Made by a program: the position numbers and the translations under genes. Below, piece by piece: positions 1,285 to 3,727 of a stretch of DNA of 64,000 bases. The stretch comes from Chloroflexota bacterium (GTDB lineage Bacteria; Chloroflexota; Anaerolineae; UBA2200; JACIWT01), in the NCBI GenBank assembly GCA_014360825.1, contig JACIWT010000002.1, forward strand, positions 78,782-142,781. Direction: 5' to 3'. The notes below the pieces were generated by a model. That model was given only the letters and a program-made list of their open reading frames with translations, made no database searches and was not told the DNA's origin. Positions within the stretch are counted from its first letter, which is position 1. Every line of letters begins with the position of its first letter.

Positions 1285-1599
1285 ATGAGCAAACCTGAGC
1301 AATCTGAGATGCGTCCAATGCAGTTGAACGTGGAACTGCCAGGCGATCTAGAATCCATTTACGCCAATCTGGCGTTGATCACTCATTCCGCCTCCGAGAT
1401 CGTGATTGATTTCGCTCGAATGATGCCCAACGTGCCCAAAGCGAAGATATACGCTCGCATAGTGATGACGCCGATGAATGCCAAACTCTTGCTGAAGGCT
1501 CTGAGTGATAATCTCAGCAAGTTTGAGGAGAAGTTTGGCGAGATCAAGACGCCCGACAAGGGATTTGAAGTGGAACGCCCGATGGGCTTCAAACATTGA
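1285..1599 (+). CDS. DUF3467 family protein
   Basis: This 104-residue soluble protein has the DUF3467 pattern: an early Y-A-N segment, a hydrophobic strand with a DFAR motif after SEIVI, and the PKAKIYARIVMTP and AKLLLKAL stretches. A good ribosome site (AGAGGAG, about 1269-1275) precedes the ATG. Members are small cytoplasmic proteins of unknown biochemical function, found in many bacteria and archaea. It lies 21 nt after the TPR gene and 17 nt before the translin-like gene, so it is co-transcribed with both. The family call is made by eye and is fairly firm; no function is assigned. Confidence 0.75.
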   Translation: MSKPEQSEMRPMQLNVELPGDLESIYANLALITHSASEIVIDFARMMPNVPKAKIYARIVMTPMNAKLLLKALSDNLSKFEEKFGEIKTPDKGFEVERPMGFKH

Positions 1600-1616: not shown

Positions 1617-2267
1617 ATGAGTAGACTACAAGACATTGTGGAGCGTATCCGTGCCGATTTCGAAGCCCGCAATGCGGCTCGCGATCAGGCTCTGATCCGT
1701 TCACGGGAACTGACTCGTCACTGTGCTAACGCCATTCGTGCTACCCACCGCGGCGATTTTGCCGCTGCCCAGGCGCTACTGAACACGGCAGCAAAGGAAG
1801 CGGCGGTCATGGCTGCGGACTTAGAGGATTACCCAGACTTGTATTATGCCGGATACACCCAAGATGCGCTGAAGGAGTACGTAGAAGCAAGCGTCACTTA
1901 CGCCGTCATCCATGGGGAACCACTGCCCTCGCCAGAAGAACTCCGCGTCGAATACCCTGCCTATCTCAATGGCTTAGCCGAGGCGTCAAGCGAGTTGCGC
2001 CGGCATACATTGGACTTGATACGCCACGGCGAAGCCTCTCAGGGTGAACGCATCTTGGAGGTGATGGAAGACATCTACGCCGAATTGATCACCATTGATT
2101 ATCCTGACGCCATTACCGGAGGCTTGCGTCGCACCACAGACCAACTGCGCGCCGTTCTCGAGCGCACCCGTGGTGATCTGACCCTCTCCATACGTCAAGA
2201 GGCTATGCGCCAGGCATTGCAAGACTTCGAGAGCCGGATGATGCCTGGAGGCGGGCCAGATGAGTAG
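1617..2267 (+). CDS. Translin-family protein
   Basis: The 216-residue, mostly alpha-helical product matches the translin/TRAX fold. An N-terminal helix is rich in charged residues, the middle contains a DLEDYPDLYYAGY region and the segment EYVEASVTYAV, and the C-terminal YPDAITGGLRRTTDQLR...TRGDL motif is the family's most recognisable signature. Eukaryotic translins form octamers that bind single-stranded nucleic acid and, with TRAX, cut RNA; archaeal and bacterial homologues are little studied. Its stop overlaps the next start by 8 nt, so it is translationally coupled to the nuclease N-half. A nucleic-acid-binding role for the operon is an inference from this pairing. Confidence 0.8.
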   Translation: MSRLQDIVERIRADFEARNAARDQALIRSRELTRHCANAIRATHRGDFAAAQALLNTAAKEAAVMAADLEDYPDLYYAGYTQDALKEYVEASVTYAVIHGEPLPSPEELRVEYPAYLNGLAEASSELRRHTLDLIRHGEASQGERILEVMEDIYAELITIDYPDAITGGLRRTTDQLRAVLERTRGDLTLSIRQEAMRQALQDFESRMMPGGGPDE

Positions 2268-2511
2268 GAATGTGATTATTCGAGCCAGCGAATTGGGGCG
2301 CTACGATTACTGTGCTCGTAGTTGGTGGCTGGAACGGGTGCGGGGGTACGCCCCAGAGAACATCGAGGACTTGCAGGCTGGCGAATCGGCTCACCTAGCC
2401 CATGGGGAGACGGTCATCCGCTACCATTTTGTGCAGCGCTTGGCCTACGCGATCCTGTTGCTAGCCGGACTGGCCGCGCTTTTGCTGCTTTTTCTTTCAA
2501 TGCGAGGCTAA
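2260..2511 (+). CDS. N-terminal half of a split, membrane-tethered Cas4/Dna2-type nuclease
   Basis: This 83-residue protein resembles only the N-terminal part of a Cas4/Dna2 PD-(D/E)XK nuclease. It has the E-x3-Y-x-Y-C-x-R-x-W-W-L motif with Cys18, which in Cas4 is the first iron-sulfur ligand, and the L-x2-G-x3-H motif with His45. It then ends in one membrane helix (about residues 61-80). Arg and His before the helix suggest the soluble part faces the cytoplasm. The catalytic Asp, Glu and Lys and the other three cysteines are absent here but present in the gene at 3197-3727. It overlaps the translin-like gene by 8 nt. A decayed fragment is the alternative, but the exact motif division and clean operon spacing argue for a working subunit. 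Confidence 0.65.
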   Translation: MSRNVIIRASELGRYDYCARSWWLERVRGYAPENIEDLQAGESAHLAHGETVIRYHFVQRLAYAILLLAGLAALLLLFLSMRG

Positions 2512-2516
2512 GCGTC

Positions 2517-3200
2517 ATGTCTTCCAGTACACGCGGGATTATCCTGGCTTGTTGCACTGTGCTAGTCCTGATGGGTTGCACCACGGTATCACTCACGCCT
2601 GATCCAGGCCAACCCACGATCCCAACATCTGCGACAGCAGTGACCCCTGCGATATCCGCGACGCCGGTTCCCCTGACCGCCACAGCCAGCCCAACGATCC
2701 GCGTCGCTCCTCCCCAACCAACGTTTACTATAACCCGCGTTCCTCCGACATCCACTGCCTCTCCCACCCTATCGCCAACGCCTTATCCGAAATCCGTTAT
2801 AGTGAATCAGGATGAGCAGCAGATGTACATTTACGAGAATGGGGTGCAGGTACGAGTCCTGCCATGCAGTACGGGGCTTCCGGACAACGAGGAAACTAGG
2901 ACTCCTGCCTGGGAAGGAACGGTAGGCAAGTACTGGGGTACGTTCTCATCGTTTGGCACCACGCAAGACGAGGGTTGGTTCCTCTTCAAGCACCATGGCA
3001 GTATCCTGATACATGGCGCTCCCTACACTCTTGACGAGGATGGAAATAAGGTGTACCAGGACTTGGATGCCCTCGGCGTGCGGCCTATATCCCACGGGTG
3101 CATTCGCCTTCACCCTGACGATGCACGTTGGTTCACCCAATGGGGTCCTGAAGGGGCGCATATCGTAATTATGCCCTGGACGGGAGGAAGTAGTCAGTGA
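2517..3200 (+). CDS. L,D-transpeptidase (YkuD domain) lipoprotein
   Basis: The 227-residue product starts with a lipoprotein signal (LVLMGC lipobox, Cys about residue 21) and a Thr/Pro/Ser-rich linker. A YkuD domain follows with the catalytic signature ISHGCIRL near residue 195 and an upstream ILIHG histidine. Such enzymes form 3-3 peptidoglycan cross-links or attach proteins to the wall, working outside the membrane with the SHGC cysteine as nucleophile. I chose the ATG at 2517, 5 nt after the preceding stop, because it gives a complete signal peptide; the frame is open further upstream but that part overlaps the previous gene. Its placement between two nuclease halves is unexpected. The stop overlaps the next GTG by 4 nt. 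Confidence 0.9.
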   Translation: MSSSTRGIILACCTVLVLMGCTTVSLTPDPGQPTIPTSATAVTPAISATPVPLTATASPTIRVAPPQPTFTITRVPPTSTASPTLSPTPYPKSVIVNQDEQQMYIYENGVQVRVLPCSTGLPDNEETRTPAWEGTVGKYWGTFSSFGTTQDEGWFLFKHHGSILIHGAPYTLDEDGNKVYQDLDALGVRPISHGCIRLHPDDARWFTQWGPEGAHIVIMPWTGGSSQ

Positions 3201-3727
3201 ATCTAGCAGGCTGGGCGTTTCTATCCTCTGTTCTCCTACTTGCTCTGGGGTTGGCACTGTTGTGGTTGGCTCATCGGCAGCGTGAGAGAACGGGTCTCCC
3301 CGCGGGCGAGGTGGTTTACTCAGACACGGGGGCGCGCCATCGGGTGGAGCGCCCTTTGTTCTCACGAAGGTATCGTCTCAGCGGCAAGCCAGATTATTTG
3401 GTGTTGCAAGGCGATGCGGTGATCCCCGTGGAAGTGAAGCCCAAACGCACTGCCACATCACCTTACTCGTCCGACGTGTTGCAACTGGCAGCCTATGGCC
3501 TCCTGGTGGAGGAGAATTACGGTCAAGCATCCCCCTACGGCATCGTCTCTTATGCCAACGCCTCGTTCCGCGTGCCGTTCACGCCCGAATTGCGTCAAAG
3601 ACTATTCGATACCTTGGCAGCCCTGCGCGCCGATTTGCATGCCCAAGACGTGGAACCCAGTCACAACTCGCCTCAACGTTGCCTGCGCTGTGGGCACCGT
3701 GGGCATTGTGAGAAGAGGCTGGCATAG
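3197..3727 (+). CDS. C-terminal half of a split, membrane-tethered Cas4/Dna2-type nuclease
   Basis: The 176-residue product begins with a membrane helix (about 5-25) followed by Arg-rich residues, which places the rest in the cytoplasm. The remainder matches the Cas4/Dna2 nuclease core: GKPDYLV with Asp66, V-E-V-K with Glu79 and Lys81, QLAAY with Gln96 and Tyr100, and a C-terminal C-x2-C-x5-C triad (Cys162, 165, 171) with the spacing of the Cas4 iron-sulfur ligands. The fourth ligand and the G-x3-H motif are in the 2260-2511 product. The GTG start overlaps the previous stop (GTGA) and has a strong GGGAGGA ribosome site at 3182. No CRISPR array or other cas gene is in the window. Confidence 0.8.
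   Translation: MNLAGWAFLSSVLLLALGLALLWLAHRQRERTGLPAGEVVYSDTGARHRVERPLFSRRYRLSGKPDYLVLQGDAVIPVEVKPKRTATSPYSSDVLQLAAYGLLVEENYGQASPYGIVSYANASFRVPFTPELRQRLFDTLAALRADLHAQDVEPSHNSPQRCLRCGHRGHCEKRLA

Follow-up and report, generated by a model that had tools for sequence, protein, structure and literature searches.

Cas4 proteins (PF01930/COG1468, TIGR00372) are the closest described relatives of the gene pair reported here. A definition of the family by four conserved cysteines was given by Hudaiberdiev et al. (PMC5704561), who in 2017 also noted solo-Cas4 proteins of Chloroflexi, in a CRISPR-free context and of function not known; neither "split" nor "transmembrane" occurs in the text of that paper. 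Fe-S nuclease domains of the RecB-AddB type (PDDEXK_1, PF12705) belong to the same superfamily, with AdnAB among our Foldseek matches, and differ from the present pair, which lacks a helicase, is split and is predicted to be membrane-bound. ACE1, an Argonaute-associated Cas4-family protein (9iab, 9iac), has a CRISPR-free Cas4 fold that Foldseek matched with E about 1e-5. It is a single chain, however, and no Argonaute was seen among the neighbours of the pair that were examined.

The window analyzed here, a 64,000-nucleotide stretch of a Chloroflexota genome, contains two genes whose products very probably make up a single two-subunit Cas4-type nuclease anchored in the membrane; the complex, the shared cluster and the activity are inferred, without biochemistry. 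The pair resembles Cas4 in predicted fold, in its PD-(D/E)XK, Q-x3-Y and G-x3-H motifs and in the C...C-x2-C-x5-C signature, and the Chloroflexi solo-Cas4 in its CRISPR-free setting; it differs from Cas4 in having two genes instead of one, with a transmembrane (TM) helix on each product. In the open-access literature searched we met no account of a Cas4 that is split or membrane-bound, most subscription papers lying outside that scope. A preliminary description of the locus, made from the letters of the DNA alone, had claimed that none existed. As far as searchable literature goes the two-gene, membrane-anchored design is indeed new, but the Cas4 family and solo-Cas4 were already on record.

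Layout of the locus

Four closely packed genes on the + strand encode a translin-family protein, an 83-residue product, a YkuD L,D-transpeptidase and a 176-residue product. We refer to the 83- and 176-residue products as the N-half and the C-half. The open reading frames and all residues named in the preliminary description were found where it had placed them.

1617..2267, + strand: translin/TRAX-family gene (AFTRAX 6.3e-23, NF011160 2.8e-87, NEQ131 2e-10)
2260..2511, + strand: N-half of the predicted Cas4-type nuclease, 83 aa (open reading frame, invariant residues in 30 relatives, Cas4 profiles, hhalign)
2311..2313, + strand: codon of Cys18, predicted first Fe-S ligand (invariant in 30 relatives and across phyla)
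2440..2496, + strand: predicted TM helix of the N-half, residues 61-79 (hydropathy 2.77, positive-inside statistics)
2517..3200, + strand: L,D-transpeptidase (YkuD) lipoprotein gene between the halves (Pfam YkuD 3.5e-18)
3197..3727, + strand: C-half of the predicted Cas4-type nuclease, 176 aa, GTG start (open reading frame, invariant residues, TIGR00372, hhalign)
3215..3271, + strand: predicted TM helix of the C-half, residues 7-25 (hydropathy 2.39, positive-inside statistics)
3392..3439, + strand: putative catalytic motifs Asp66 ... Glu79-x-Lys81 (invariant in 30 relatives; counterparts in the canonical Cas4 alignment)
3680..3709, + strand: C-x2-C-x5-C, Cys162/165/171, the other three predicted Fe-S ligands (invariant)

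The end of the translin gene overlaps the start of the N-half gene by 8 nt, a gap of 5 nt separates the N-half and L,D-transpeptidase genes, and the latter overlaps the C-half gene by 4 nt. Such close spacing suggests that the genes form one operon and that their translation is coupled. Downstream of the C-half lie ORFs that resemble hisS, NAD kinase, a small membrane protein and recN (named by eye). A DUF3467 gene (3.1e-24) occupies window positions 1285-1599, upstream of the translin gene, and 17 of the compared loci have a homologue upstream. The setting is CRISPR-free, as had been claimed: no Cas1 family match was found in the 97.9% complete genome, and the pair does not meet the criterion for a CRISPR-associated Cas4, which is encoded with cas1/cas2.

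Complementary parts of a Cas4-type protein

Within a Cas4-type PD-(D/E)XK nuclease, the N-half corresponds to the N-terminal quarter and the C-half to the remainder. An ASE motif, Cys18, a WW pair, G-x3-H (Gly41, His45) and a C-terminal TM helix follow one another in the N-half; the C-half has a TM helix, RERTGLPAG, Asp66, Glu79/Lys81, Gln96/Tyr100 and Cys162/165/171, in that order. The C-half is matched by TIGR00372 (4e-15, positions 58-179), Pfam PDDEXK_1 (1.3e-7) and Cas_Cas4 (4.8e-5). Matches of the N-half are weak one by one (TIGR00372 0.0076, PDDEXK_1 0.032), and across Pfam, NCBIfam and PADLOC they always fall on the missing N-terminal piece, at positions of about 2-55; the eight PADLOC models that place it so are all Cas4 or Cas4-containing fusions. 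When the halves are joined, PDDEXK_1 is covered from position 4 to 246 (5.1e-11). Against curated cut-offs the C-half passes PF01930 (23.9 vs 22.7) and misses TIGR00372 (56.1 vs 65), and the N-half is below every one.

Because single-sequence matches of the N-half were weak, alignments of relatives were built, and 30 relatives per half were compared with 19 canonical Cas4 proteins using hhalign. The N-half aligned with Cas4 columns 8-53 (94.9% probability, E 4.7e-8) and the C-half with columns 58-198 (99.7%, E 2.5e-26); the Cys and G-x3-H motifs were paired with those of Cas4. Cys18, Trp22/23, Gly41 and His45 are invariant among the 30 divergent N-half relatives, as are Asp66, Glu79, Lys81, Gln96, Tyr100 and Cys162/165/171 among those of the C-half. 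On the evidence of these alignments, such conservation excludes chance. The Cas4 likeness of the short protein, on which the preliminary description depended, is thus weak by single sequence and clear by profile-profile comparison.

Further features bear on membership in the Cas4 family. The PD-(D/E)XK motifs and Q-x3-Y are present in the C-half. The four conserved Fe-S cysteines are present only in the pair, one from the N-half and three from the C-half; no long half of any relative examined has all four, save three joined fusions, and the proposal that neither half is complete is upheld. A single polypeptide, as in other Cas4 proteins, is lacking: nearly all relatives are split, and the halves are fused only in L121, L255 and L258. 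Taken together, the complementary profiles, the invariant motifs and recurrence across Chloroflexota support the original proposal of a split Cas4-type nuclease.

Membrane anchors and topology

Each half has one predicted TM helix, located at the break; a comparable hydrophobic stretch is absent from the canonical Cas4 proteins examined. In the 15 residues before the helix, Lys and Arg together number 3.4 on average in N-halves and 0.3 in C-halves; after the helix the averages are 0.6 and 3.6. The excess lies before the helix in 55 of 57 N-halves and after it in 77 of 80 C-halves, so that both soluble parts should face the cytoplasm. Positive residues on the nuclease side of helices at the break, first noticed in the window, are thus seen in nearly all of the halves counted.

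Related pairs on plasmids of other phyla

Using tblastn, we found the same two-gene design on plasmids of Singulisphaera and Paludisphaera (Planctomycetota), Bacillus subtilis (Bacillota) and Marinobacter, Aeromonas and Alicycliphilus (Pseudomonadota). The distribution outside Chloroflexota is known from plasmid records only; none were found in viral contigs searched with C-half and N-half queries, or in phage records searched with two C-half queries. The planctomycete and B. subtilis pairs are at L270:1151-1923, L271:1142-1923 and L272:676-1414, with the N-half annotated as hypothetical. Those of Pseudomonadota (L298:678-1611, L300:8498-9414, L301:8998-9938, L302:8519-9453) share with the window pair the same break, the Cys/catalytic signature and an N-terminal TM helix on the C-half. 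Their N-half, in contrast, ends in a CFI-box-CTERM domain (NF041770), and is annotated as a CFI-box-CTERM protein, where the window N-half has a plain TM helix. Of the 27 plasmid records that have a Marinobacter-type C-half, 24 recur in the N-half list when matched by accession.

The window pair and CRISPR-type Cas4 lie on opposite sides of a supported branch (99/96), and in the cross-phylum tree a 98/95 branch divides the split forms of all four phyla from canonical Cas4. A single origin of the split forms is favoured and is not proven, since the tree has two very long rows and samples few Cas4 proteins.

Conservation of the catalytic residues

C-x2-C-x5-C is found in 80/80 named relatives, and PD...E-x-K is retained in 78 of them. 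The C-halves at L138:422-982 and L139:452-1006 have the three cysteines and no E-x-K core; from these residues they are possibly non-catalytic members. The PD aspartate is replaced by Thr, Ala or Ser in L121, L255, L256 and L258. Since catalytic residues have been lost and cysteines kept in some lineages, the proteins concerned may not be conventional nucleases. The pair might accordingly be read as forming an Fe-S protein of the membrane that has a Cas4-like fold but serves mainly for something other than DNA cutting, such as redox sensing, scaffolding or nucleic-acid binding, and both sets of exceptions favour this, membrane anchors as well as cysteines having survived the loss of catalytic residues. 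We consider it unlikely, if still conceivable, for the window pair: Asp66, Glu79, Lys81 and Gln96 are invariant in its own clade, exceptions to PD...E-x-K are confined to two of the named relatives, and the catalytic residues, together with the Cys/His invariants, are kept on plasmids of Bacillota, Planctomycetota and Pseudomonadota.

Gene order between the halves

Both halves were found in 44 of 60 same-class genomes. They are adjacent in 22 (matches 13-148 bp apart), separated by a gene-sized gap in 16 (651-1060 bp), and on different contigs or distant in 6; different contigs in draft genomes are little proof of real separation. What lies between the halves in relatives is nothing, an L,D-transpeptidase, or a HEAT-repeat-like, flavodoxin-like or toxin-like gene (identities by eye). 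In one same-class family (L074, L076, L077, L080) a HEAT-repeat-like gene of about 215 codons replaces the transpeptidase.

The preliminary description had placed an L,D-transpeptidase between the halves, and its position and identity are confirmed; its membership in the system is not, as it is replaced or absent in relatives. A link between the nuclease and cell-wall remodelling through this enzyme could be argued from its place between the halves in the window and many relatives, and from the 4-5 nt spacing in the window. We give this only a slender chance, because the 22 adjacent pairs leave no room for the gene and other relatives have a different one there. The L,D-transpeptidase is a frequent passenger, not a component of the nuclease.

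Co-occurrence and native fusions

Among 400 Chloroflexota genomes, 115 have both halves, 7 the C-half only, 11 the N-half only and 267 neither. If only strong matches are counted, the N-half is strong in all 86 genomes with a strong C-half. The C-only genomes G067, G080, G180, G368 and G375 carry a divergent N-half on closer look, and the N-only genomes rest mostly on weak matches. These counts ignore shared ancestry. A scan of named genomes gave 80 loci, nearly all titled Chloroflexota or subgroups and one Gracilibacteria, with the N-half within about 3 kb of the C-half in 62; where it was not beside the C-half, it was found elsewhere in the genome in 12/12 cases taken. In G016, a single 3.3-Mb contig, the halves are at 0.24 and 3.05 Mb, and on a Caldilineaceae chromosome they are about 390 kb apart. 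The short gene does, then, accompany the long one in related genomes, adjoining or elsewhere, and judged by these matches co-occurrence is near-obligate. The record titled Gracilibacteria (L202) has a typical Chloroflexota C-half and is probably a misbinned contig.

Fused versions, which the preliminary description proposed looking for in Chloroflexota, exist. In three relatives a single ORF encodes both halves, arranged as N-TM-TM-C (L121:522-1505, L255:215-1219, L258:853-1911). All come from one Chloroflexota family, which we infer is probably Ktedonobacteria, and in a maximum-likelihood tree they sit in three places among split relatives; L256, the nearest relative of L255, is split. From the three separate positions, fusion probably happened repeatedly, and this is the strongest argument from sequence that the halves form one enzyme.

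It is very improbable, given these data, that the C-half is sufficient alone and has in the N-half no more than an unrelated small membrane protein as a neighbour. The individually weak single-profile matches of the N-half would allow it, but the profile-profile match, with agreement of the Cys and G-x3-H, the presence of the N-half even when unlinked, the native fusions and recurrence of the pair on plasmids of three other phyla all oppose it. Adjacent complementary ORFs are usually a sign of decay, but an origin of the split by decay, frameshift or misassembly of an ordinary cas4 is effectively refuted: the split persists over much of the phylum, the halves have separate starts and each has its own TM helix, other genes may lie between them, and on finished chromosomes they can be hundreds of kb apart. 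For a two-subunit nuclease, then, complementary halves, invariant residues, near-obligate co-occurrence, repeated fusion and predicted topology are established as far as sequence comparison can do so.

Predicted structure

In the relative L194 the two genes are in frame with each other and only a TAG codon separates them. This natural read-through, with TAG read as Gly and mostly unpaired half-length rows in the alignment, was used as AlphaFold2 input and gave a model with mean pLDDT 94.6 and pTM 0.89, in which two long helices lie at the junction. The top solved matches in Foldseek were full-length Cas4 from Cas4-Cas1-Cas2 complexes (259-271 columns), with a TM-score of 0.70 normalised on 8d3l; 7mi5 was also matched. 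A Cas4 fold is therefore predicted for L194, and support for a single Cas4 fold comes from this model alone. As AlphaFold2 has seen Cas4 structures and the halves were joined, the model indicates compatibility, not binding.

Translin and a possible role

The gene at 1617-2267 meets the homology criterion for the translin/TRAX family by its AFTRAX and NEQ131 matches. Translin-family proteins bind nucleic acids. In 41 of the compared loci a gene of this family lies upstream in the same orientation, and in 36 of 39 it overlaps the N-half or lies within about 100 bp of it; the arrangement recurs, overlapping or adjoining, in many Anaerolineae loci. Translin is present in 114 of 122 genomes with a C-half versus 106 of 278 without a C-half match, and is the probable operon partner of the N-half. 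On plasmids the neighbours include transfer genes: TraN, TraF, TraH and TraG near the pair on pALIDE201, TraG and ssb on an Aeromonas plasmid, and a MobF relaxase on both planctomycete plasmids.

Two other roles were considered and set aside. ComEC, examined for a link to natural competence, is present in 344/400 Chloroflexota and is too common to discriminate. For a defence role, PADLOC gave only Cas4 models and weaker DruK matches, and the Chloroflexota neighbours viewed were housekeeping-like.

Translin coupling and the transfer-gene contexts make DNA processing at the membrane the most economical role. We offer DNA-end or single-strand processing there, independent of CRISPR, as no more than a tentative suggestion, inferred from neighbours only; the presence of translin in many genomes without a C-half match counts against it.

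Discussion

In our working model the first Fe-S cysteine, the initial helices and G-x3-H would come from the N-half, and the PD-(D/E)XK core, Q-x3-Y and the remaining three cysteines from the C-half. Both soluble parts would lie on the cytoplasmic face, with the TM helices packed as a hairpin in the inner membrane; the hairpin would bring the parts together, so that the fold is completed and one Fe-S cluster is ligated across both subunits. The physical complex, the shared cluster, Fe-S binding and nuclease activity are all inferred. Ligation of the cluster across two membrane proteins would be an unusual construction for an Fe-S nuclease; if it is real, neither half should be active alone, and activity would therefore depend on membrane assembly.

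Current annotation misses half of the proposed enzyme, the N-half being called hypothetical or CFI-box-CTERM. The solo-Cas4 noted in Chloroflexi in 2017 would gain an architecture and, in translin, a probable partner, provided that they are the same proteins. That the pair turns up on plasmids of several phyla points to a DNA-handling device of general use, located at the membrane. It is possible, and at present speculative, that these proteins form a deep cross-phylum family of two-subunit membrane Cas4-type nucleases acting on DNA at the inner membrane: the forms on conjugative or mobilizable plasmids would act on transferred DNA, and the Chloroflexota forms would be a system encoded on the chromosome that works with translin. 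If that family is real, the CRISPR Cas4 would be its soluble, single-chain cousin.
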